A model generated the notes under the pieces. The model was given only the letters and a program-made list of their open reading frames with translations, did no database searches and was not told the DNA's origin. The translations under genes were made by a program, and so were the position numbers. Positions 3,945 through 15,941 of a DNA stretch of 64,000 bases are shown in pieces; within the stretch, counting starts at the first letter, position 1; each line of letters opens with the position of its first letter. The DNA comes from Flavobacteriaceae bacterium (GTDB lineage Bacteria > Bacteroidota > Bacteroidia > Flavobacteriales > Flavobacteriaceae): positions 1 through 64,000 of the forward strand of contig JABSPM010000110.1 in the NCBI GenBank assembly GCA_013215095.1, written 5' to 3'.

Positions 3945-3951
3945 CTAGAAT

Positions 3952-3980
3952 AGCCGAGATTTTACAGTCTCGGCTTTTTT
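3952..3980 (+). terminator. Rho-independent terminator of the tRNA pair
   Basis: AGCCGAGA (3952-3959) and TCTCGGCT (3968-3975) form a perfect 8-bp stem with an 8-nt loop, followed by an uninterrupted T run. It lies 7 nt after the tRNA-Leu. Confidence 0.9.
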
Positions 3981-4101
3981 GTTGGGTACAATATAGGTGC
4001 AACAAATAGCGGTTTATTTTATCACTTTCTGACACCATTTAACACTAAAAAAGTCATCTCAGTTTCCCAAGACAGCTTTTAAAATTATCTAAAATCAGAG
4101 A

Positions 4102-4503
4102 TTACAGCTCAAAAGCTAAAATCTGACCCTCTAACTCTTTTTTACGCGCTTCCAAAGGTTTGTAATTTTTCAGAAACCAACGCAATTAAATTACTGTTTG
4201 TGGTCTTAAATTCTTTCCAGACGAATCACGCAGAAAGAATGTACTAGTGCTATCGTTGTTGTAATTAAAACGTTGAATGTCCGTAAGGATAGCATTTAAG
4301 CGCTCACCCTGGTTAGCCAAGCCTCTAAGCTTCTCGAAACATTGAATTTTTCAGCAAATTGCACCATAGGTGTAATAGGATTCGCTTTTACAGACTGAGG
4401 TGTTTTGGCTCGTAGCCTCCTCAGCTAATTTTTGCTACACTGCTTTTTTAGCTGTTGTAGTTTCTTTTGTGCTACTTTCATTTTTTAGTTTTGTCATTGC
4501 CAT
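4102..4503 (-). pseudogene. Decayed small accessory gene with coiled-coil character
   Basis: Reading from ATG at 4503 on the minus strand gives MAMTKLKNESSTKETTTAKK, then an in-frame stop. Sense continues in shifted frames: FEKLRGLANQGERLNAILTD, later FLRDSSGKNLRP, and finally KPLEARKKELEGQILAFEL ending at a stop at 4102. The pieces have the order and style of one protein of about 130 residues, with charged helices and a short middle strand, broken by at least two frameshifts and a stop. I recall similar unnamed proteins in flavobacterial genomes but assign no function. It lies between tRNA-Leu and IS630 debris. Confidence 0.55.
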
Positions 4504-4562
4504 ATTGTTTTTATCCAAAATGTTTAACATTTCAATTAGGGATATGACAAAACTAAAAAATG
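4479..4562. repeat. Perfect 19-bp inverted repeat
   Basis: Positions 4479-4497 and 4544-4562 are exact reverse complements (ATGACAAAACTAAAAAATG in the second arm), with 46 bp between. The first arm is the start of the decayed minus-strand gene (codons MTKLKN). The second arm repeats that start on the plus strand, towards the IS630 remnant. It has no T run typical of a terminator, so an inverted duplication from a rearrangement seems more likely. Confidence 0.7.
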
Positions 4563-4609
4563 GTCGTCACAAATGATATCAGTGTTAGAAAATACAGTAG
4601 TAATATCAA

Positions 4610-4909
4610 ACAAGAAATGGTATTAGTGCTTTTAATCCCTCTGAACTCAAAATTATTATAATTGATAATGTTACTTTTCACTCTACTAAAACTGTACAAA
4701 TATCTGATAATATTATTACTAATCCCACCATATTGCCCAGAACTAAACCCAGCTAAGAAAATATGGCAATATCTAAAAAGTAAAATCGCTATGAAATATA
4801 TGACACTTTAGATATACTTGAGTCTAAAATAGGATAACCTATTGATAATATGAGTCAAGATATGACTAGGTCAATAACTGGATATGAATTTTATTTAAAA
4901 TTACGGTAG
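4610..4909 (+). pseudogene. Remnant of IS630-family transposase, C-terminal part
   Basis: Plus-strand sense FNPSELKIIIIDNVTFHSTK is the second-aspartate strand of the DDE fold of IS630 transposases. After a frameshift near 4722 comes PPYCPELNPAKKIWQYLKSK, the hallmark block with the last catalytic acid. A second shift and a stop follow, then MTRSITGYEFYLKLR, the usual C-terminal end. The N-terminal half is missing. It is a dead fragment. Similar elements may be the source of the partial gene at the left edge. Confidence 0.8.
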
Positions 4910-4928
4910 TTTCAATGTTTAAATGGTA

Positions 4929-6077
4929 TTACTTTGGCATTTTTATAAGATTAATGCGTTTTGTTGGTGTTGATAATGTTTCTAAAAATGCAATGATTGA
5001 ATTAATTTCTTCTTTTGATAACTCTAATCGCTTTAATAATGGTGATGTTTTTGGAACAAGCGAATCCCTTGGTGTACCTAAATAGCGTTTTTGAATTGGC
5101 GCAGGATTTCCCAAATTGTAAAACTGAACCACATCTAATAACGATGGAAAGTGTCCATGGTGCATCCAAGGGCCGGTTTTACCAACTTCGCGCAATGTAG
5201 GTGTTTTAAACTTGCCAACGTCTTCAATGTTTTTGGTAAAATAATAACGTCCTAAATCTTCATGTTTTGAACCAAATAGTGTCTGCCCATCATTGTGAAA
5301 TTGATTGTCACTAAAATAAGGTGTGTTATGACAATTAATACATCGTGCTTTAGTTCTAAATAGATGTAAGCCCATAACCTCTTCATCAGTAAATAGCTCT
5401 GTATTCCCTTTTATAAAATAATCAAATTTACTATTTCTACTTACCAAACTGCGTTCAAAGGTCGCTATGGCTTTAAGAATTCTATCCAAATTTATGAAAT
5501 CGGTACCAAAGGCAGCTTTAAAAAGTGGCTTGTAATCTTTTATTATAGAAATGTTTTTAACCGCAATATGATGAGGTGTATTCATTTCTATACTATCTGC
5601 TATTGGAAATGCGGCTTGATGTTCAAGACTATTGGAACGCCCTGACCAGAATAGTGTTTTGGCATACCCCACATTTTTAATAGTCATAGAGTTACGATTG
5701 TTAGTTTGCCTATTATGACCAAAAGATCGTGTGATGTTATCTGTCCAAGCTAGTTCTGGGTTGTGGCAACTGGCACAGGCTATTTGTCCTGTAGCTGATA
5801 ATCGGGCATCAAAAAATAAAAATTTACCCAACTGTTTTTTAGCTTTACTATATGGATTATTTTCAGGGTAAATAACATCGCCTAGAAGACCAATATCTTC
5901 AAACGTCGTTGTATCAATACGCGAATCTAAATGTGGTTTTGGCCATTTTGAAGCATCGGGTTGACTGTATAATGTTCTGAGCTCAGAGATAGAGTCATAG
6001 GTGTTTTTACTTTTGAAATTATAACATAATACACTTAAGAGTAGTACTATGGCTAATGGATAAATCTTCTGCATCAT
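4929..6077 (-). CDS. Di-haem cytochrome c peroxidase (CcpA/MauG family)
   Basis: A 382-residue exported protein with two c-type haem sites, CASCH at 101-105 and CINCH at 246-250, in the arrangement of bacterial di-haem peroxidases and MauG-like enzymes. Trp111 follows the first haem motif, at the place of the inter-haem electron-relay tryptophan. The N-terminus (MMQKIYPLAIVLLLSVLCY) is a secretion signal without a good lipobox. The enzyme would act in the periplasm, reducing hydrogen peroxide or oxidising a partner protein. It is the last gene of the SusCD locus, 6 bp after the upstream lipoprotein gene, so it is probably co-transcribed. Peroxidase and MauG-like roles cannot be told apart from this sequence. 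Confidence 0.9.
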   Translation of the reverse strand: MMQKIYPLAIVLLLSVLCYNFKSKNTYDSISELRTLYSQPDASKWPKPHLDSRIDTTTFEDIGLLGDVIYPENNPYSKAKKQLGKFLFFDARLSATGQIACASCHNPELAWTDNITRSFGHNRQTNNRNSMTIKNVGYAKTLFWSGRSNSLEHQAAFPIADSIEMNTPHHIAVKNISIIKDYKPLFKAAFGTDFINLDRILKAIATFERSLVSRNSKFDYFIKGNTELFTDEEVMGLHLFRTKARCINCHNTPYFSDNQFHNDGQTLFGSKHEDLGRYYFTKNIEDVGKFKTPTLREVGKTGPWMHHGHFPSLLDVVQFYNLGNPAPIQKRYLGTPRDSLVPKTSPLLKRLELSKEEINSIIAFLETLSTPTKRINLIKMPK

Positions 6078-6083
6078 ACAAAG

Positions 6084-7580
6084 TTATAAAGAAATGGGTA
6101 CAAAACAATCCTCTGTTAAATCATTAGGTTCTGGAAAACTAGGTGTATTATAAATGACGTATTTAGCGACTCGGGTACCGCCAAAAAGCTGTTGATTAGT
6201 AGCTTGTAGTTCTAATTGGATTTCAAAAATTCCTGAGGATGTTTCTTGGTATGTGCCTTCTCCAGTTATAGCAATGGTATAGCTGTTTCCATTGGTATCC
6301 GCAATAATGATATCTTGTGCTACAACTTGTACAAATCCATTAGTAGTACTTGTACCATTTTCTGGAAAAAAGTCTAAAGCTTCAAGAATATTAAAGCCAG
6401 GTGAGTTTGTAGCAGAAATAGATTCGTTATTGAACCAACGTTTTAAATTAAAAGAGTTGGTAGTGTTACCTGCATTGGGTGAGTCAAAACCTATTCTAAA
6501 AGCATGGTGGTAAATATCATCAGATGGATCTGTAGTTTCTAAATCATCTAAAACCGCGTTTGGGTGATTGGCATTCACAACAACAGGATAGGTGAAGGCA
6601 TGAAAAGCTTGCCAAGAGCAAATACCGTCTTCATTAAAGTCCATCCAGTTTTCTCCATACGTTCTGTAATACGGGTCATCAAGATTATAGAAATTAGCCG
6701 CAGTATTTACACTATTATCTCGTGGTGTTATTAGAGGTTTTCTAATAGTAATCTCAGTAATACCACCTATAGTATAGCCTGGGATATCTGCCAATTGAAA
6801 TTTAGTTTCATATAAAAACTCATCATTCAAATCTTCGCTAATGGTGTATTTATAAAATACAGTAGAAGACGCTTCGTCGACTGAAAATACTTCTAAGTCA
6901 TAGCTAATAGCAAGAGCATCAATATTATCGGTCGCAACTTCGTTGAGTAAATCAATTCCATTTATGTCATCTTCAAAAAAGCCATTGGGAAAGCTAATAC
7001 CTATTAGGGCTTCTTCATCTTGCAAACCAATAATTTCTTCAAGACTGTTTTGCAACGTATAATTGAATTCAACATCTTCAAGATTAATAGTTAATATATC
7101 ATTGGGCAAATTAGTATTTGGCATTCCTATGTAAATATTGGAATCACTGATATCTGTTAAGCTAAATTTAATAGATGGATTATTTAACCCATTCCAGATG
7201 TTTTCAAAATTAACAGATATAGTGTCTGTAAGTTTTGTACTATTAAAACTTAAGGTTTTTTCTGGCTCGATACTTACTCCTTGTAAATTACCCAAAAATT
7301 CGGTTGCAAAATTAACCGTTATTTCATTTTCAAAATTAATTGCAGATAGTACCACAGGAATTTTTAAAACTCCTAACTTATCTTTTGTGTATGTGTCAAC
7401 AGGAATCAAACCACCACTTACTTGTGGATATTCCAATACGTTATTATCATTATCTACCAGCATAAAAAAACGTACAAACTCACCATCGGCTTTTGTAAAT
7501 GTTCTATCAATATCATCATTGCAAGACCATAATAGACATGCAAACATCAACAATCCTAAAATATGTTTAATACCCTTCAT
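6084..7580 (-). CDS. SusCD-linked surface lipoprotein of unknown function
   Basis: The start chosen is ATG at 7580 (MKGIKHILGLLMFACLLWSC), which gives a lipoprotein signal with Cys20 as the lipidated residue. An earlier in-frame ATG at 7673 would bury this signal. The 498-residue protein is rich in beta-type sequence, with Ig-like stretches in the first third and Asn/Asp/Thr-rich loops. I recognise no catalytic motif or named domain. It overlaps the end of susD by 14 nt and precedes the di-haem peroxidase gene by 6 nt, so it is translationally tied to the uptake pair. By position it could be an accessory substrate-binding (SusE/F-like) lipoprotein. That is inference only. Confidence 0.8.
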   Translation of the reverse strand: MKGIKHILGLLMFACLLWSCNDDIDRTFTKADGEFVRFFMLVDNDNNVLEYPQVSGGLIPVDTYTKDKLGVLKIPVVLSAINFENEITVNFATEFLGNLQGVSIEPEKTLSFNSTKLTDTISVNFENIWNGLNNPSIKFSLTDISDSNIYIGMPNTNLPNDILTINLEDVEFNYTLQNSLEEIIGLQDEEALIGISFPNGFFEDDINGIDLLNEVATDNIDALAISYDLEVFSVDEASSTVFYKYTISEDLNDEFLYETKFQLADIPGYTIGGITEITIRKPLITPRDNSVNTAANFYNLDDPYYRTYGENWMDFNEDGICSWQAFHAFTYPVVVNANHPNAVLDDLETTDPSDDIYHHAFRIGFDSPNAGNTTNSFNLKRWFNNESISATNSPGFNILEALDFFPENGTSTTNGFVQVVAQDIIIADTNGNSYTIAITGEGTYQETSSGIFEIQLELQATNQQLFGGTRVAKYVIYNTPSFPEPNDLTEDCFVPISL

Positions 7581-9015
7581 TTTGCTGTATATTTTCATTT
7601 TGTAATACATTATCTTCAGGAATTGGTAAAATAAAAAAGTTGGATGGATAACTGAGATTACAGAGTGCTGCAATACATCCTAAATTTCGCTCAACATCTT
7701 TTTTATACCTCACGATATCAAATAGTAAATGTCCTTCAAAAGCGAGTTCTCGTCTACGTTCCACAAAGATATCATTTAATAAAGTGCTTGTACTATTTAA
7801 AGGTGCTAGATTGGCGCGCGTTCTTATAGTATTTAAATCTGAAAGTGCTTCAGTATCCGATCCTAATCTAGCATTAGCTTCGGCACGTATTAAATAGAGT
7901 TCTGAGAGCCTCATAAATAAAGTGCCTGCATTATCCTGAAATTTTTTAGTAAAATGGTAATCTACATTGGTATCCACGCCATTAATTTGTGTGGAAATAG
8001 TAACTTCTAAAAATAGATTTTGCCGAATATCTGATACTTCGTACAATGCTAATAGATCGCCAGAGGCAACATAGTCTGCATAGTTACTCAATGACGAAAA
8101 TTGAAAATTTGCAGCTAAAGTTGATGAGACATTACCTTCTGGATTTCTTGAAGCCGAAAATTCTAAAATCACTTCATTTACAGGCAATTCTGGTGCTTCC
8201 CATTCTACTATGTAATTATTTTGAGAGGTAAGACTTATGCCAGAATTATTAATAACAGTACTAGAAAGATCTCTAGCCACCTGCCAATCATCCATTTGTA
8301 ATGCTATTCTAGCATAAAGTGCTGTTGTGCTGATAGTGTTAAAATACGAATAACCTGGACCACTTTGTAATGGCGTGTTACTATATAGGTTTAAAGCACT
8401 ATCTAAATCTGCCTTAATAAAGATATAGGTTTCTGCCATAGTTTTTCGGGATGGAAAATCTACACCAGCAGTTAAAACAGCGGTGTTATATACCACGCCT
8501 AGATGTGACCCGTCTGGTGTAAATCCGTTGTGTTGTGAAAACAACAGACTTACTTGATAATGTGCTAAGGCCCTAATGGTTAACAGTTCGGCTTGAAGTT
8601 GATTTAATTCTGAAGTCGAAAAAAAGGTGTAGTTACCTATCCTGCTCAGTATGAGATTTACTTGATTTATAACTGCGTACCATTCATCATAATACTCATC
8701 AAAATTGAGTTCTTGTGGATTAGCATTGAAGTTATAAGCAAAAAAGACTTCGTCTGGAATGGTCACTATAGCATCACCAAGCGTTGAAGGTGTAAAGGTA
8801 ATATTACCTCCTAAGGCATCTGCATAGACGGCAAATTTGGATGAAAAAATATCTTCTGTATCATAGTAAATTCCATTATAAGCTTGTAAAACTCCTTCTC
8901 GTGTGGATAATTGCTCATTAATAGAGATCTGTAAATCTGGTTCCTGATATAAAAAATCATTACAACTTACTGCAAGTAAAATAATAGCGCTTATATAAAT
9001 TAGTTTTTTTAACAT
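7567..9015 (-). CDS. SusD/RagB family nutrient-binding outer-membrane lipoprotein
   Basis: A 482-residue SusD-like lipoprotein. The signal MLKKLIYISAIILLAVSCND places the lipidated Cys at 18. The N-terminal helical (TPR-like) region includes NEQLSTREGVLQAYNGIY. The C-terminal part has the family block LFMRLSELYLIRAEANARLG followed by LNTIRTRANL and VERRRELAFEGHLLFDIVRY, typical of SusD. It would form the lid over the SusC barrel and bind substrate at the cell surface. It lies 6 bp after susC and overlaps the next lipoprotein gene by 14 nt. The substrate is not evident, as no polysaccharide-degrading enzyme is present. Confidence 0.95.
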   Translation of the reverse strand: MLKKLIYISAIILLAVSCNDFLYQEPDLQISINEQLSTREGVLQAYNGIYYDTEDIFSSKFAVYADALGGNITFTPSTLGDAIVTIPDEVFFAYNFNANPQELNFDEYYDEWYAVINQVNLILSRIGNYTFFSTSELNQLQAELLTIRALAHYQVSLLFSQHNGFTPDGSHLGVVYNTAVLTAGVDFPSRKTMAETYIFIKADLDSALNLYSNTPLQSGPGYSYFNTISTTALYARIALQMDDWQVARDLSSTVINNSGISLTSQNNYIVEWEAPELPVNEVILEFSASRNPEGNVSSTLAANFQFSSLSNYADYVASGDLLALYEVSDIRQNLFLEVTISTQINGVDTNVDYHFTKKFQDNAGTLFMRLSELYLIRAEANARLGSDTEALSDLNTIRTRANLAPLNSTSTLLNDIFVERRRELAFEGHLLFDIVRYKKDVERNLGCIAALCNLSYPSNFFILPIPEDNVLQNENIQQNEGY

Positions 9016-9021
9016 AATTGT

Positions 9022-12000
9022 TTAAAATGTGGCATTGAGTCCTAACGAAAATGTACGCATTTCTGGATATACATTTCTCAATTCTGCAATACCATTTCCA
9101 AAATCATTTACTGGATTAAAGAACCAATAAAAAAGATTTGATCCATTGGTGAAAACATTTAAGGATTTTAAGGATAATCTTAATTTATTTACTGGAACGT
9201 TATATCCTAAATTTATGGTGCGTAATCGAAAGTGGGATTCATCGAATACATATTTTGATGAGTTAGCAATAATTCTGTTACTATTGGAAATGATAGGATA
9301 TTGCGCAAGATCACCTTGTTGTTGCCAAGCCTGTTGCCATAAATTTACACTTAGATTCCGATTGAATAACACCCGATAATTATCCACCAAATTTCTGTCA
9401 ATCAGGGCATCCTGTCCAATGGCATAAGACCAAATCATGCTAAAGGTGAAATTTTTATAGTTAATTGTATTTCTAAAACCACCATACATGTCGGGTTGTC
9501 TGTCGCCTATAGGTGTCCAATTAGACTCGTTAAAGTTTTCGGCGACGTAACTTGCATCATAGGTTTCCCCATTTAGATCGAACAACTCACGTCCTGTAGC
9601 AGGATCTATTCCTATAAAGTTAAATCCCCAAATGGTAGATTGTGCAAATCCTACTTGACGTGATAAGGCATTTTCTGCCAATGAAAATTGAGAGCCCAAA
9701 CCTTGTAAATCTGTAATTTTATTTTGTAGTGTTGAAATATTGAAATTGGTAGTCCACGAAAAATTTTCATTGTTGAACCATTTGGCTTGCAATGAAAGTT
9801 CAAACCCTTGGTTATACATGGATGCTCCGTTGATTTGCACTTCATTGAATCCTACTTCTGAAATAGTAGGTCTTGAGGTAATTAAATCATCAATAGTATC
9901 TCTAAAGTATTCTGCGGTTAAATTAAATTTATCAAGAAACTTAATATCTATCCCAATATTGAATTTAGTGTTTTGCTCCCAACCCAGGTTAGGATTTGGT
10001 GCACTTGAAGGGTTTGCATAATTATGATCATTATATCCTGTTCCATTATCAGATACAGTGTATAAACCGAGTGCTCTGTAGGATCCTATACGAGAATTAC
10101 CTGTAGTTCCTAAACTTAATCGCAGCCTTAAAAAATCAATAAAACTATTACCGTTTGGATCAAAAAAGTCTTCATTACTTATATTCCAGCTAGCACCTGC
10201 GCCCGCGTTAAAAGCAGTATTCCTATCATTGCCAAATGCTGAGCTTTGATCTATACGTGCGTTGAACAGTAAGAAATACTTTTTTTTGAAGTTGTAATTA
10301 ATTTGAGAAAAGAAAGAACGCCCTGTATTTTCAAAACTATCATTTTGGTAATCATTATCGGTAGCTAGTGCTATGGGTTGTGGTGTAGCAAAATTTGTAA
10401 AATTATTACCTCTTGCATATGATAATTCAACATGTTCTTGTCGTGTTTCAATACCAGCTAGTGCATCAAAATTATGGTGATCATTAAAGGTAGTATTATA
10501 AAATAGGTTAGCACTCCAGTTCCACCGATTGGTATCCCTATCTCTTAAGATACGTCGTCCTAGGTCGCCATCATTAAACTGTCCACTGCCATTAAGACCA
10601 GAAAAAAAACGATCTTCATCTTTATTAGAATAGTCCATACCAAATAGTGTAGTAAATCTTAATTTATCATTAAATTGATAATTAAGATTAATACTCGTTA
10701 ATAAGGCAAAAGTTTTAATTTGTCGCCTGTTTTGATTAGCCACGGCTACTGGATTACCATAAGAGGGAAAATTAGTATAGTTCCCATCGTCATCAAAAAC
10801 TGATATGGTTGGGTCTACAGCAAAATTGTATAAGGTGTTAGGGTCATTTTTTTCAGTAAGTGCTGGAGATATATTTAAAACTACATTAAATTTTTTATTG
10901 TTATAATCTAGTGCAAGTGTACTATTGAGATTATCAAAGGTATTAGCTACTTGGGTTTCATTATTTATTTGATAGGTGGTATTAAAACGATATCGTAAGC
11001 GTTCTCCGCCGCCATTAACTCCCAAAGTGTAGCGATAAAATGTGCCAATATCATTTAATAAATCAAACCAATTGGTATTAACCCCATTCCATTCTTCAAT
11101 GTTTTCAAAATCACCATTATTAAGATAGTATTGGTTGAGAATGGTTCGATATTGTTCTCCATCAAGATATTGAAATTGATTCATAGGATTTTGAAATCCT
11201 GCTTGAATTGAAGCATTAAATACGGGTTTACCAAGTTTCCCTTTTTTTGAGGTAATTAAAATAACACCATTAGCAGCATCGGCACCATAAATACCAACAG
11301 CGGCAGCATCTTTGAGCACTTGAAAATTTTCAATATCGTGGATGCCAACTCGGGCCAGGGGATTTAAAATATTTTCTGAGATATTTCCTGTGCCTACATC
11401 AAAAAGGTTACTTCCGTCTATACCAACTTCTTCAGATAGAATAATACCATCTATAATAATTAAAGGCTGGGTGGAAGTGCCTACAATATTTTGTTCGAGA
11501 GGTGTTAATGAGCCTTGACCTCTTATATCAATACTTACTTCTTCTCCTAATCTAGGATTAGTTTCTATATATACACCTGCTAGTTGACCCTCAAGTAATT
11601 CATCAAATGTGGTTGCGTTTTGCTCAGTAACAATATCTTTTGATCTTACGCTGACAATACTCCCTACCAATTCTTCTTTTCGTTTTTTCGTACCATAGGA
11701 TGAGGTGATAATGACTTCATCTAGAGCTTCTAAATCTTCTACAAGTGCTATTTCAAAATAGGTTTTGTCTTCTATTTTAACTTCTTGATTTTGATAGCCT
11801 AAGTAAGATACAATAAGATTGTTTTCGCTTGAAGAATTTAGCGTTAGTGTTAATGAAAAATTTCCATTAAAATCTGTGGATGTCCCTTTTGATGTGTTTT
11901 TCACAAGGATTAATGCTCCAAATAGGGGAGCATTACTTTGAGCATCTTTAACCACACCAGAAATTTGGATATCTGTTTGCGACCAAATTACAGTGTTTGT

Positions 12001-12036
12001 AAACACAATTAGAATTACCTTTAGATATCTATTCAT
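9022..12036 (-). CDS. SusC/RagA family TonB-linked outer-membrane transporter
   Basis: A 1004-residue TonB-dependent transporter with a signal peptide ending near WSQ (residues 18-20). A carboxypeptidase-like regulatory domain covers about 24-105. The TonB-box/plug region contains LDEVIITSSYGTKKRKE and the SusC signature IENFQVLKDAAAVGIYGADA with NGVILITSKKG. A long barrel follows, ending with an aromatic residue (LGLNATF). It would import a ligand captured by the neighbouring SusD, using TonB energy. There is no STN domain, and no anti-sigma/ECF regulator gene is nearby. It is preceded by an ELWxxDGT/T9SS gene 89 bp upstream. Confidence 0.96.
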   Translation of the reverse strand: MNRYLKVILIVFTNTVIWSQTDIQISGVVKDAQSNAPLFGALILVKNTSKGTSTDFNGNFSLTLTLNSSSENNLIVSYLGYQNQEVKIEDKTYFEIALVEDLEALDEVIITSSYGTKKRKEELVGSIVSVRSKDIVTEQNATTFDELLEGQLAGVYIETNPRLGEEVSIDIRGQGSLTPLEQNIVGTSTQPLIIIDGIILSEEVGIDGSNLFDVGTGNISENILNPLARVGIHDIENFQVLKDAAAVGIYGADAANGVILITSKKGKLGKPVFNASIQAGFQNPMNQFQYLDGEQYRTILNQYYLNNGDFENIEEWNGVNTNWFDLLNDIGTFYRYTLGVNGGGERLRYRFNTTYQINNETQVANTFDNLNSTLALDYNNKKFNVVLNISPALTEKNDPNTLYNFAVDPTISVFDDDGNYTNFPSYGNPVAVANQNRRQIKTFALLTSINLNYQFNDKLRFTTLFGMDYSNKDEDRFFSGLNGSGQFNDGDLGRRILRDRDTNRWNWSANLFYNTTFNDHHNFDALAGIETRQEHVELSYARGNNFTNFATPQPIALATDNDYQNDSFENTGRSFFSQINYNFKKKYFLLFNARIDQSSAFGNDRNTAFNAGAGASWNISNEDFFDPNGNSFIDFLRLRLSLGTTGNSRIGSYRALGLYTVSDNGTGYNDHNYANPSSAPNPNLGWEQNTKFNIGIDIKFLDKFNLTAEYFRDTIDDLITSRPTISEVGFNEVQINGASMYNQGFELSLQAKWFNNENFSWTTNFNISTLQNKITDLQGLGSQFSLAENALSRQVGFAQSTIWGFNFIGIDPATGRELFDLNGETYDASYVAENFNESNWTPIGDRQPDMYGGFRNTINYKNFTFSMIWSYAIGQDALIDRNLVDNYRVLFNRNLSVNLWQQAWQQQGDLAQYPIISNSNRIIANSSKYVFDESHFRLRTINLGYNVPVNKLRLSLKSLNVFTNGSNLFYWFFNPVNDFGNGIAELRNVYPEMRTFSLGLNATF

Positions 12037-12125
12037 ACTTATACTGCAGTTAGCGGTATAATTTCAAATGAAATATACACCGCTAAAATATAATTTGTTT
12101 TAACGTTAGATAAATAGTGAGATGT

Positions 12126-13550
12126 TTATTCCACTATTATCTTTTTACTAACTGTAATTGAATTTTCAGACCTTAGTTTTAAAACATACATACCTGATGC
12201 TAGTTGGTGTTGTATTTGATCATTTAATAATACCCCGTTTAATATTTGTCTTCCATTAATATCATAGATAGTATAATCTAAATCTATTTGATTGTTAGTT
12301 TTGATATTGATAGTACCTCTTGATGGATTAGGGTAGACTTTAACTATATTATTTAAATCTAAAGATGTAATACTCAATGTTGCATCATCAAAAGAGTAAA
12401 GCTCATTACCAGTAGTACCATCGTCACCTTCAAAATAAAGCTTATTATTAAATACTACAATGTCATCGATGTCTTTTATAGTGCTGTCTATCTGTTCTAC
12501 TGTAGTACCATTGGTTCTAAATAAATGACCATCTGTGTCATTGGCATCTTCGCCTCTGTAATACAACCATCCATTATATTCTGCATAATCTGATGGATCG
12601 TGATTGGTGTTGGTTCCCGTAAGATTACTTAAATTGGTAACGGTATCTGCGATAGGATCATACTTCCATAGTTGATCGCCATTACCATCATCTCCTTCAA
12701 AATATAAATTCCCGTTCCAAACATAAAATTCTGTTACACTACCAATACCTGCTGCATCTACAACAGATACTAAAATTGTACCCATTTCTGTACCATCAGT
12801 TTGCCATAGCGCATTATCAGCTTCAAAATATACAGTGGAATTAATTTTTGCCATGTAGTTAATACTCGAGTCGCCTGTACCAGTATCTACATCTTTCACC
12901 AAAGTATAGGTTTGTGCAGCAATATCATATTTGTAAAGCTCTCTACCTATGGTGGGCTCATCTGTACTATAATCCATATAAATCAGAATGGTGTTTGGGT
13001 CAAATTCAATATAGATACCACCAATTGGAGTTGCTGTACAATTACCAACATCTGTAACTTGTTGAAAGGTTGTGCCATCAAACTCATAGAATACATTGCC
13101 CAATGTTGTTGCTGTCATGTAAGCTTTTGATCCTACAATAATAGGTTGCAGATTTGAAAATCCGTTATTGGTATTTATGGTACCCGCCTCTGTACCATCA
13201 GTTTGCCATATTCTACTTCCTCCGCCATCATTCGCAGAAAAATATAATGTACTACCTAATTCAAAAAACGCAAATGGAGAGCTATTACTAGACCCTATTT
13301 GGATATCTTTTAATAAAGATGTACCCACAGCTGTACCATCTGTAATCCATAATTCCTGCCCTAAATCTGACCCCCCAGAGTTTACCCCACTAGAGTCGTC
13401 TGCATTAAAGTAGATATTACCGTTAAAAATGTATAGATTTCTTGGGTTGGAATTATTTGAACCATCATTAATATCTAAAACCTGAGTAACCTGAGCAAAG
13501 CCAAAGTTTAGACATAAACATAAAAAAGTAAAAAAGTAAAATTGTTTCAT
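12126..13550 (-). CDS. Secreted ELWxxDGT-repeat protein with T9SS type A sorting domain
   Basis: A 474-residue secreted protein. The signal peptide is MKQFYFFTFLCLCLNFGFAQ. Several repeats of about 45-50 residues each carry the ELWxxDGT motif: ELWITDGTAVGTSLLKDI, RIWQTDGTEAGT, ALWQTDGTEMGT and weaker copies, a pattern expected to form a beta-propeller-like fold. The last 80 residues are a Por secretion system sorting domain beginning VKVYPNPSRGTINIKT and ending with a basic strand (SKKIIVE). It should cross the outer membrane by T9SS and be anchored or released there. It is the first gene of the minus-strand SusCD locus, but a common transcript is not proven because of the 89-bp gap. Confidence 0.9.
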   Translation of the reverse strand: MKQFYFFTFLCLCLNFGFAQVTQVLDINDGSNNSNPRNLYIFNGNIYFNADDSSGVNSGGSDLGQELWITDGTAVGTSLLKDIQIGSSNSSPFAFFELGSTLYFSANDGGGSRIWQTDGTEAGTINTNNGFSNLQPIIVGSKAYMTATTLGNVFYEFDGTTFQQVTDVGNCTATPIGGIYIEFDPNTILIYMDYSTDEPTIGRELYKYDIAAQTYTLVKDVDTGTGDSSINYMAKINSTVYFEADNALWQTDGTEMGTILVSVVDAAGIGSVTEFYVWNGNLYFEGDDGNGDQLWKYDPIADTVTNLSNLTGTNTNHDPSDYAEYNGWLYYRGEDANDTDGHLFRTNGTTVEQIDSTIKDIDDIVVFNNKLYFEGDDGTTGNELYSFDDATLSITSLDLNNIVKVYPNPSRGTINIKTNNQIDLDYTIYDINGRQILNGVLLNDQIQHQLASGMYVLKLRSENSITVSKKIIVE

Positions 13551-13829
13551 AAGTTATTATTTTTATTTGTTCTAAATAAATTTAAAACAAAAATACGAAC
13601 AATGTTTTACGACACAAGGTTAAATTATTGTAAATTTTATTTTCAAGCTATACATAGGTAGACAAAATTAATCTAATATCTTGCTTTAAAAGTTAGAACT
13701 TTGTCGCTTTGAGGCACAGTATTGATGCATATGTTTTCTAATTTATCTTCATATTAGTTGTATGGATTAGATGATAATAGCTAAGTTCTAATACAGGTAT
13801 GAATTATCTTTACTAAAAATTAAGATATA
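13551..13829. other. Intergenic region upstream of the ELWxxDGT gene
   Basis: About 280 bp between the minus-strand secreted-protein gene and the transposase debris. It should hold the promoter of the SusCD locus. I see no gene, hairpin or repeat in it. Confidence 0.5.
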
Positions 13830-14148
13830 TATAATTCCATCAGATTTTAGAGATTATTTGGTTAGTAGTTCATCTGATATTCAGCAAGAGATTTTGTCTT
13901 CTTTGCTGTCCTTGTCTATAGAGTCAAATGATATTAGAGATACCAAAGAGGACAAAGCTATTAGTTGCCCCCAATTGTTCATAAAAATGTATTTGATCCA
14001 ATGGAAGACTTAAAGGTGTTCAGCGTTATTTTTGTAATGATTGTCATAAGAATTTTAGTGAGACTACGGGTGAGTTTTGGTATGGTATTAAGAAAAAAGA
14101 TAAATTGAGCCAGTAATTATATTGTCTTTTGTCTGGTTATAGTGCCGT
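13830..14148 (+). pseudogene. Remnant of a zinc-ribbon transposase (IS1595-like), N-terminal part
   Basis: The plus strand first reads IIPSDFRDYLVSSSSDIQQE and, after CPQ and a frameshift, NGRLKGVQRYFCNDCHKNFS followed by ETTGEFWYGIKKKDKLSQ and a stop, then LYCLLSGYS. Paired cysteines (CNDC) with the RYFCNDCHKNFSETTG context are typical of zinc-ribbon heads of IS1595/IS1-type transposases. Everything downstream of GYS is absent and replaced by IS1182-type sequence. Naming the family from this head alone is uncertain. Confidence 0.6.
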
Positions 14149-15425
14149 AGAAGAAAGCATAAATTATATGTGGTTATCAGCCAAACAAGTTTTCGACCAT
14201 AATACCATTGCTCATTTTCGAGGTCATAAATTTAAAACCATTTTAAGGATTTTTTCAAGCAAGTGGTATTATTATTAGCTGATGAAGGTTTGGTACCACT
14301 AAAGGAAGTTTATACCGATGGCGCTAAAATAGAATCCATTTTAGGAAGATATACCTTTGTATGGGGCAATGCCATCAAGACTCGCAAAGAAAAAATATCC
14401 TAGCAATTGGAAGAACTTTGGCAGTACGACTAAAGTATCGCCAAAGAAGGCTATAAAGACTCAACACACCAGATTTTAAGAAAATAGATAAAAAGATAAA
14501 GTCGCTAAAACAGCAGCAAAGATTAACAACATACAACATACTTAAAGGCAATCCTAAAGCAACACCTAAACAAAAAGCCAAAGCACTTTATATTGAAAAG
14601 AATTTTCCAGCTAATCTTGAAAATACGAACAACAAGAAAAGCTACTCGCAGGATTCAATAGTTACAGCAAAACTGATCCTGATGCCACTTTTAAGCGTAT
14701 GAAAGAAGATCACATGCTTAGCGGTCAGCTAAAACTAGGCTATACTGTACGAATAAGTTCTGATTACCAATTTGTTATTCATTATAGCATACACCAAATC
14801 ACTAAAGATATATATACCTTAAAACCTCATATAACATCTTTTGAGTATCAGTATGAAACGCTAACTGATTACCTCACTGGAGATGCAGGTTATGGTAGTG
14901 AAAAAAACTATGATTTATTAGAACAAAAAGGTGTCGAAGCCTATGTAAAATACAACACCTTTGACAAAGAACAACAGACCTATAAATCAAAGAAAAAGAA
15001 AAAATTCAAAGATGACTTCTATAGAGTTAACTTACACTATAACCTAGATAAAGACTGTTACATCTGTCTGATGGGGCAAGAAATAGCCAAAGTCTGATTA
15101 TGAGCAAACTTATAGAATCTACCAAGCTCAAAACTGCAATGGTTCTCCATTGCAGGGAGTATGTCATAGTTCTAAATACAATAGAAAAATAGAACGAACC
15201 CACAATCTGGAACGCCATAAACAAATCATCCGTGCAAGATTAACCAGTGATCAAGGCCTAAAGCGACGTAAAAAACGAACTGCTGATGTAGAACCTGTTT
15301 TTGGACATATGAATCAAATAGAAACTTCGAACGGTTTACCCATTACCCATAAAGGCATTGGAAAAGTATAATTAGAGTTCAGATTATACGCTTTAGCACA
15401 TAATATGCGCAAAAAAGTGGCTTAA
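14149..15425 (+). pseudogene. Decayed IS1182-family transposase
   Basis: Sense begins inside the N-terminal domain (YMWLSAKQVFDHNTIAHFRG), continues through LADEGLVPLKEVYTDGAKIE with the first catalytic Asp, and GRYTFVWGNAIKTRKEK, then a stop. It resumes at 14699 with a long frame containing the second Asp region TDYLTGDAGYGSEKNYDLLE. It ends with TADVEPVFGHMNQIET carrying the catalytic Glu and LALAHN-type C-terminus LYALAHNMRKKVA stopping at 15425. At least three stops or frameshifts interrupt it. The order matches IS1182 transposases of about 450-500 residues. The first about 80 residues are missing. Confidence 0.85.
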
Positions 15426-15490
15426 ACTAGCATTTAATCAATTAACCCAATACAAAATTAGAATTTATCAAATCTATTACTAAATAAAAT

Positions 15491-15554: not shown

Positions 15555-15941
15555 TTAGTGACCTTTTAATTTGTCAGCAGCATTATTAGCAGCATCTTTA
15601 GCGTCATTCACAGCATCTTTAGCAGCGTCTTTAGCGTCATTCACAGCGTTATTAGCAGCATCTTTAGCGTCGTTTACAGCATCTTCTGCTGCTTCTTTAG
15701 CGTCGTTTACAACATCTTCTGTTGCTTCTTTAGCATCGTTTGCAGCATCTTCAACAGCATCTGCAGCTTCTTTAACAGCCTCTTCTGTTGCTTCTTTAGC
15801 GTCATTAGCAGCGTCTTTAACTTCTTGAGCAGCATTTTCAACAGCATCGTTTACCGTATCTTCTGCTTTTTTCTCTCTACAAGATGTGACAGACACTATA
15901 AGTGCCATAACCATTACTAAGCTTAGAATTGATTTTTTCAT
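15555..15941 (-). CDS. Lipoprotein with tandem 11-residue amphipathic repeats
   Basis: A 128-residue lipoprotein: signal MKKSILSLVMVMALIVSVTSC with the lipidated Cys at 21, then an almost uninterrupted series of 11-mers of the type VNDAKDAANNA, EDAANDAKEAT and KEAADAVEDAA. The composition is almost wholly Ala, Asp, Glu, Lys, Asn and Val. The 11-residue period resembles group 3 LEA proteins and YtxH-type or apolipoprotein-like helices, which form long amphipathic helices. The DNA shows the matching 33-bp repeats. It would be tethered in the periplasm or at the outer membrane. Stress protection is a family-level analogy, not shown here. Confidence 0.85.
   Translation of the reverse strand: MKKSILSLVMVMALIVSVTSCREKKAEDTVNDAVENAAQEVKDAANDAKEATEEAVKEAADAVEDAANDAKEATEDVVNDAKEAAEDAVNDAKDAANNAVNDAKDAAKDAVNDAKDAANNAADKLKGH

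Follow-up and report, generated by a model that had tools for sequence, protein, structure and literature searches.

Within a window of 64,000 nucleotides (nt) from a Flavobacteriaceae bacterium (GenBank assembly GCA_013215095.1, contig JABSPM010000110.1, positions 1 to 64,000), we find an operon in which a SusC/SusD outer membrane importer is joined to an unnamed lipoprotein (LP) and a di-haem c-type peroxidase (CCP). SusCD transporters are usually read and annotated as glycan importers; the present operon, in which such a transporter comes with a redox enzyme in a fixed position, is, strictly, neither a MauG nor an MbnH/MbnP system. The explanation that we favour, tentatively and somewhat short of an even chance, is that it encodes a non-glycan TonB importer whose peptide- or protein-derived cargo, perhaps bearing iron or haem, is oxidised in the periplasm by CCP, LP not being the target. 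The five genes, all on the minus strand, are as follows.

4929..6077, minus strand: di-haem c-type peroxidase (CCP), MauG-type by alignment, last gene of the operon (CCP_MauG match of 174 bits, MauG alignment, family alignment, tree)
6084..7580, minus strand: LP, an unnamed SusCD-linked lipoprotein of 498 amino acids (aa), probably at the surface (AlphaFold models, structure matches, family alignment)
7567..9015, minus strand: SusD-type lipoprotein lid (PF07980, SusD_RagB, 90 bits; PF14322, SusD-like_3)
9022..12036, minus strand: SusC/RagA TonB-linked outer membrane barrel, short form without STN domain (TIGR04056, 644 bits, full length)
12126..13550, minus strand: ELWxxDGT repeat protein with a type A sorting tail of the type IX secretion system (T9SS) (TIGR04534, ELWxxDGT_rpt, 137 bits, six repeats; TIGR04183 tail)

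An initial annotation of this DNA had described these genes as packed together, with an overlap of 14 nt between the LP gene and susD, and the description holds: the first good start of LP (MKGIKH...) lies at 7580 and the stop of susD at 7567, giving an overlap of exactly 14 nt. LP and CCP are separated by 6 nt, as are susC and susD, and the gap from the ELWxxDGT gene to susC measures 89 nt.

The linkage of the peroxidase to SusCD, on which that annotation had built, is conserved in all readable flavobacterial relatives. The order SusC-SusD-LP-CCP recurs in 32 of 32 readable Flavobacteriales and Cytophagales loci, Fulvivirga included (two CCP-type loci carry one additional small gene ahead of CCP), and among these 32 is a more divergent locus from another family of Flavobacteriales (LP 34%, CCP 59%). 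The LP stop and CCP start mostly overlap or lie no more than 20 nt apart in relatives. A search for all five genes in other genomes had been proposed, and four of them do form an invariant core; the ELWxxDGT gene lies outside it, since it precedes the core in certain loci, follows it in others and is not found in most Flavobacterium loci, and we regard it as an optional companion because its position varies and many CCP loci do without it.

LP loci (23 from one scan of genome contigs, in several Bacteroidota orders, and more from whole-genome sampling) are rare: LP is present in 13 of 397 Flavobacteriaceae genomes, and in 3 of 344 genomes in the order of Plebeiobacterium. These 13 Flavobacteriaceae genomes are exactly those with a CCP more than 60% identical to that of the window (Fisher p ~1e-24, uncorrected for kinship, the genomes not being independent), so that the separate distribution of the peroxidase which might have told against the linkage was not observed. 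Distance correlations (r = 0.90 for LP and CCP, 0.74 for SusC and CCP) speak for co-inheritance and not for function, because shared history alone can produce them. The operon is a sporadically distributed, co-inherited unit. A candidate promoter for CCP itself (TTG-N19-TAACTTTG, 31 nt before the CCP start) was rejected as a chance match, given that it is present in the window only and in 0 of 30 relatives, and that its -7 box lies almost at the start codon.

The position of CCP is occupied differently in Bacteroidales, where in eight loci (L008, L012, L019, L021, L022, L023, L129, L130) the gene 3' of LP encodes a DUF4953/DUF5117/DUF5118 Met-zincin protease, as called from hidden Markov model (HMM) matches in L008 and L019 (the L019 contig ends within the gene) and from BLAST against L008 in the remaining loci. 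CCP_MauG genes number 0 in all seven protease-type genomes searched, two of which are isolates, with metagenome-assembled genomes among the rest, and incompleteness may contribute to this absence. Two changes on the LP tree are needed to account for the switch between CCP and protease. The presence of a protease in the position of CCP favours a peptide- or protein-like cargo; a literature search on DUF5117, DUF4953 and Met-zincin returned general peptidase papers only. The protease-type loci also encode an AraC-type regulator, and a membrane protein of 650 aa, which carries 4Fe-4S domains and resembles NapH/MauN/NosR, is found at L012:377-2326 and in L021, L022, L023 and L129. Exported proteins of ~210-219 aa with no Pfam match (L007:11530-12171, L018:11538-12170, L022:14406-15065) occupy the LP/CCP gap or follow the protease.

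The enzyme had been described as MauG-like, and the alignment agrees. CCP carries CXXCH motifs at residues 101-105 and 246-250, a bridging Trp144, a distal triad of Gln154, Pro158 and Glu164 corresponding to Gln103, Pro107 and Glu113 of MauG, and Tyr320, which aligns with Tyr294 of MauG (chain position 294); the roles of these residues are taken from work on BthA (PMC6405878). The two motifs, the bridging Trp, the triad and the Tyr are invariant in 31 CCP sequences, and in 31 of 31 the Tyr replaces the axial Met of classical bacterial cytochrome c peroxidases (bCCPs), which argues against Met-His ligation of a high-potential haem and for a MauG-type enzyme with a predicted Tyr-His ligation of a six-coordinate haem. 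Nevertheless, CCP falls below the cut-offs of both the MauG equivalog TIGR03791 (210.7 bits vs 443.85) and the MbnH family TIGR04039 (236.2 bits vs 362.85). The 31 operon CCPs form one clade (SH-aLRT, the Shimodaira-Hasegawa-like approximate likelihood ratio test, 97), nested with CCPs from operons encoding DUF4876 proteins, DUF6850 proteins and TonB receptors (clade support 100).

Several of these features would also suit a plain periplasmic H2O2-reducing peroxidase that is protective during the import of redox-active (iron or haem) cargo and modifies neither the cargo nor a partner, an explanation that we consider unlikely, if reasonable. Of the 31 CCPs, 30 retain a bCCP-like distal-loop histidine (H121), which is missing from the MbnH-like enzyme encoded elsewhere in the same genome, the Gln/Pro/Glu pocket is intact, and CCP is absent from Bacteroidales genomes that still have the importer. 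However, the exchange of the axial Met for Tyr would give the ligation of MauG and BthA, and other CCP paralogues are frequent in flavobacteria, so peroxide defence would need none that is tied to a rare importer.

Alternatively, CCP might oxidise one of the proteins encoded beside it (LP, SusD, SusC or the ELWxxDGT protein), in the way that MauG acts on preMADH, the methylamine dehydrogenase precursor, and MbnH presumably acts on MbnP, the modified residue then building a site for a metal or ligand. LP matches no Pfam or NCBIfam family, and its candidacy as a relative of MbnP was rejected on this basis. Its confident AlphaFold models (predicted local distance difference test score of 85 for the whole protein and 90 for the C-terminal part) have a predicted architecture of a Calx-beta/DUF1735-like domain, an Ig-like domain and a C-terminal avidin/lipocalin-like barrel. 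The segment 32-170 aligns with Calx-beta domains (Z ~11) and with Bacteroides proteins, some of them of the DUF1735 family, and the predicted fold may be likened to that of three SusCD-linked Bacteroides proteins, namely 3n91 (residues 31-480, Z 9.1, 233 residues aligned, root-mean-square deviation (rmsd) 11.8), 4jx0 (Z 8.4, 119 residues, rmsd 3.3) and 3sot. The C-terminal barrel gives Z of 7.7 at most, with avidins tied with barrels of Bacteroides outer-membrane-associated proteins, and Foldseek returned no match to it under E 0.001; no ligand is read from this barrel because its best Z is at noise level. In having its gene directly 3' of susD and in being a lipoprotein with N-terminal Ig-like domains, LP corresponds to SusE and to surface glycan-binding proteins, and it resembles the auxiliary surface lipoproteins that SusCD systems ordinarily have. 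Position and fold suggest that it may serve as a capture or auxiliary subunit. It has a lipobox, and the acidic residues that mostly follow the lipid Cys are typical of surface export, which would place it away from a periplasmic enzyme.

Modification of an operon protein is distinctly improbable in our estimation. In its favour, CCP has the Tyr-His residues of the MauG type, the LP gene lies immediately 5' of CCP and is co-inherited with it, LP residues W312, C321, W323, Y357 and H359 are invariant, and SusC W753 and Y826 are conserved in 28 of 31 CCP-type sequences and in 0 of 5 protease-type ones. Against this, the same LP residues, together with C492, are invariant in CCP-type and protease-type loci alike, and a search of LP and SusD for Trp, Tyr, Cys, Met or His residues specific to CCP-type loci found none; residues that are equally invariant in genomes without CCP_MauG argue against LP as a dedicated substrate, a candidacy that we set aside as improbable. 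Moreover, LP is probably exported away from the periplasm, and the ELWxxDGT protein is missing from many CCP loci.

The initial annotation had pointed to MbnH, which acts beside TonB transport in methanobactin loci, and in its strict sense this analogy finds no support, given the missed cut-offs, the absence of any match of LP to MbnP and its lack of CCP-specific residues. Another contig of the same genome (L094:7932-11019) encodes a genuine MbnP (PF20243, 137 bits), with genes for a di-haem enzyme of MbnH-like type and for a T9SS protein with a YHYH domain beside it; the MbnP/MbnH-like pair lies far from the SusCD operon, and its enzyme is distant from the operon CCP in the tree. Copper uptake in the manner of the methanobactin, MopE and CorA systems, which handle copper at the cell surface, with a di-haem enzyme as partner, is a highly improbable account of the locus, since LP is not MbnP and a separate, distantly related pair exists. 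In its favour, methanobactin loci place di-haem enzymes next to TonB receptors (PMC3621798), and in several Flavobacterium genomes (L052, L057, L061, L062) the operon adjoins efflux-like genes and the gene for a P-type ATPase whose N-terminus is rich in His.

As the initial annotation had claimed, no carbohydrate enzyme occurs in the window locus, and no glycoside hydrolase, lyase or sulfatase is conserved across 40 compared loci (HMM search on a selection of flanking genes), so that the conserved association with glycan genes which could have undermined the claim was not found. An ordinary polysaccharide locus with its enzymes encoded elsewhere in the genome, CCP being incidental, is therefore very unlikely. 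SusC, SusD and an auxiliary lipoprotein do make up the usual core of such loci, and a few relatives have glycan enzymes nearby (RGL11 in L053; GH16 and GH88 in L010); however, these neighbours are not conserved, the partner kept in the slot is CCP or the protease alone, the operon's SusD is the only one in the whole 3.07-Mb genome (genome search), and the co-occurrence of LP and CCP is perfect across the 397 genomes. The accompanying claim that regulators are lacking is true of the window and of five relatives, which form a smaller group, but not of the system as a whole, as 25 of 31 CCP-type loci have genes for an extracytoplasmic function (ECF) sigma factor and a FecR anti-sigma factor, followed by a longer SusC (with an STN domain in the one tested).

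Returning to an importer of peptide- or protein-derived cargo, we propose that LP, and the ELWxxDGT protein as an additional surface-exposed factor where present, would capture the cargo at the surface, and that SusC and SusD would enclose it as a pedal-bin transporter, TonB pulling it into the periplasm. In flavobacteria and Fulvivirga, a periplasmic Tyr-His MauG-type CCP fed by H2O2 would then oxidise the cargo, whereas in Bacteroidales without CCP_MauG genes the Met-zincin protease would cut it. The target of CCP would most likely be the imported cargo (a Trp- or Tyr-bearing peptide, a chelate or haem) and not LP.

A possible link to iron comes from the next-nearest relatives of CCP, which are mostly found in TonB-receptor/DUF4876/DUF6850 operons. 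In flavobacterial operons of this kind (L085-L093), a di-haem CCP was seen in all nine genomes. Iron depletion induces DUF4876/TonB loci 20.8-214.5-fold in Porphyromonas gingivalis (PG1019-22), and 112-128-fold (BT3631-33) and 3.5-7.4-fold (BT1933-39) in Bacteroides thetaiotaomicron (PMC10434189), which puts them with the loci that respond most strongly in these species, and a P. gingivalis DUF4876 gene is among those most changed with hemin supply (PMC10470040). The initial annotation had suggested a peptide, metal-chelate or redox-processed ligand, and among these the protease swap favours something peptide-like, and the next-nearest CCPs lie beside TonB receptors of an iron-responsive type. 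A more specific proposal, that a peptide bearing iron or haem, or else a redox-active natural product, is imported and then opened or modified in the periplasm by a dedicated MauG-type oxidase, with the protease opening the same cargo class in relatives without CCP_MauG, seems to us rather unlikely.

A number of observations weigh against import and oxidation of such a cargo. The suggested iron link is indirect, being drawn from the closest relatives of CCP outside the operon clade and, in other species, from orthologues of the genes beside those relatives. The subcellular site of CCP is predicted only, and about one third of its relatives are lipoprotein-like. Furthermore, the closest solved SusC (8aa4) is named a 'SusC homolog' and not a peptide transporter, and the NapH/NosR-like ferredoxin membrane protein of most Bacteroidales protease-type loci has a role that our proposal leaves unexplained.

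The surroundings of the operon include the following features.

12037..12125, minus strand: intergenic hairpin between the ELWxxDGT gene and susC, TTAGCGGTGTATATTTC...GAAATTATACCGCTAA (fold of -19.9 kcal/mol), possibly an attenuator or operator
13588..13617, minus strand: promoter-like match of Bacteroidetes type 5' of the ELWxxDGT gene, TTG-N19-TATTTTTG (pattern scan; chance expectation 0.06 per 250 nt)
13800..15440, plus strand (region 13600-15440): decayed transposase remnants on the upstream side of the operon (DDE_Tnp_1 match, broken frames)
4680..4810, plus strand (region 3950-4928): decayed transposase remnant on the downstream side, PELNPAKKIWQYLKSK (translation), presumably of DDE type, as judged by its motif

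The transposase remnants on the two sides differ in kind, and genes for tRNA-Gly and tRNA-Leu adjoin the operon; these neighbours suggest that the operon has been mobile, as do its relatives in other genera, most of which have different neighbours. Rfam found two tRNAs in the window and nothing else, and a search for Fur-type operators upstream found weak palindromes only. Genes within positions 1-30000 include an RNA methyltransferase, mutS, the two tRNAs and core-genome genes, with no carbohydrate-active enzyme, lyase, sulfatase or regulator evident from the translations. At 15555-15941, a predicted lipoprotein of 128 aa consists of near-repeats (KEATEDAVNDAKDAA...) and is similar in composition to late embryogenesis abundant proteins and apolipoproteins. 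For the ELWxxDGT domain, a search for solved homologues such as a BtuG-like propeller matched the T9SS tail alone convincingly, and none of the papers searched mentions ELWxxDGT.

An invariant fourth gene for a MauG-type oxidase, replaced in another order by one for a protease, makes the operon a clear-cut, testable example in which SusCD probably imports something other than a glycan and a di-haem enzyme takes part in nutrient uptake. Many MauG-like enzymes have no known substrate, and for these the operon presents a partner system of a new sort; it is also a warning that not every SusCD pair marks a polysaccharide locus. Oxidation of the cargo by a dedicated enzyme would, if true, be the first case to our knowledge of a SusCD locus whose own processing step is oxidative and not hydrolytic, and none of the papers searched joins SusD to cytochrome c peroxidase, TonB, Bacteroidetes and peptide.

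Among known systems, polysaccharide utilisation loci share with the operon adjacent susC and susD and the order SusC-SusD-auxiliary lipoprotein, and are set apart from it by their enzymes, of which no glycoside hydrolase, lyase or sulfatase is conserved here. SusCD systems that import oligopeptides are known, namely RagAB of P. gingivalis and BT2261-64 of B. thetaiotaomicron (PMC7782687). Structures of the SusC homologues RagA and BT2264 have been solved, and both systems, as SusC/SusD importers of a non-glycan cargo, match what is proposed for the operon, while differing in lipoprotein family. In neither are we aware of a redox enzyme or a Met-zincin that always comes last. With MauG and MbnH/MbnP, the operon shares a di-haem enzyme with a bridging Trp, a Gln/Pro/Glu distal pocket and, by alignment, Tyr as sixth ligand, but its CCP has an extra distal-loop His and scores below both NCBIfam cut-offs, and the partner is neither MbnP nor methylamine dehydrogenase. 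Finally, the TonB receptor-DUF4876-DUF6850 operons, for which iron induction is documented in Porphyromonas and Bacteroides loci only (PG1019-22, BT1933-39, BT3625-33; PMC10434189), have a receptor that is not of SusC type, no SusD and other lipoprotein families, yet they resemble the present operon in combining a TonB-dependent receptor, a lipoprotein and a terminal CCP of the same clade (44-56% identity) with no carbohydrate enzyme.

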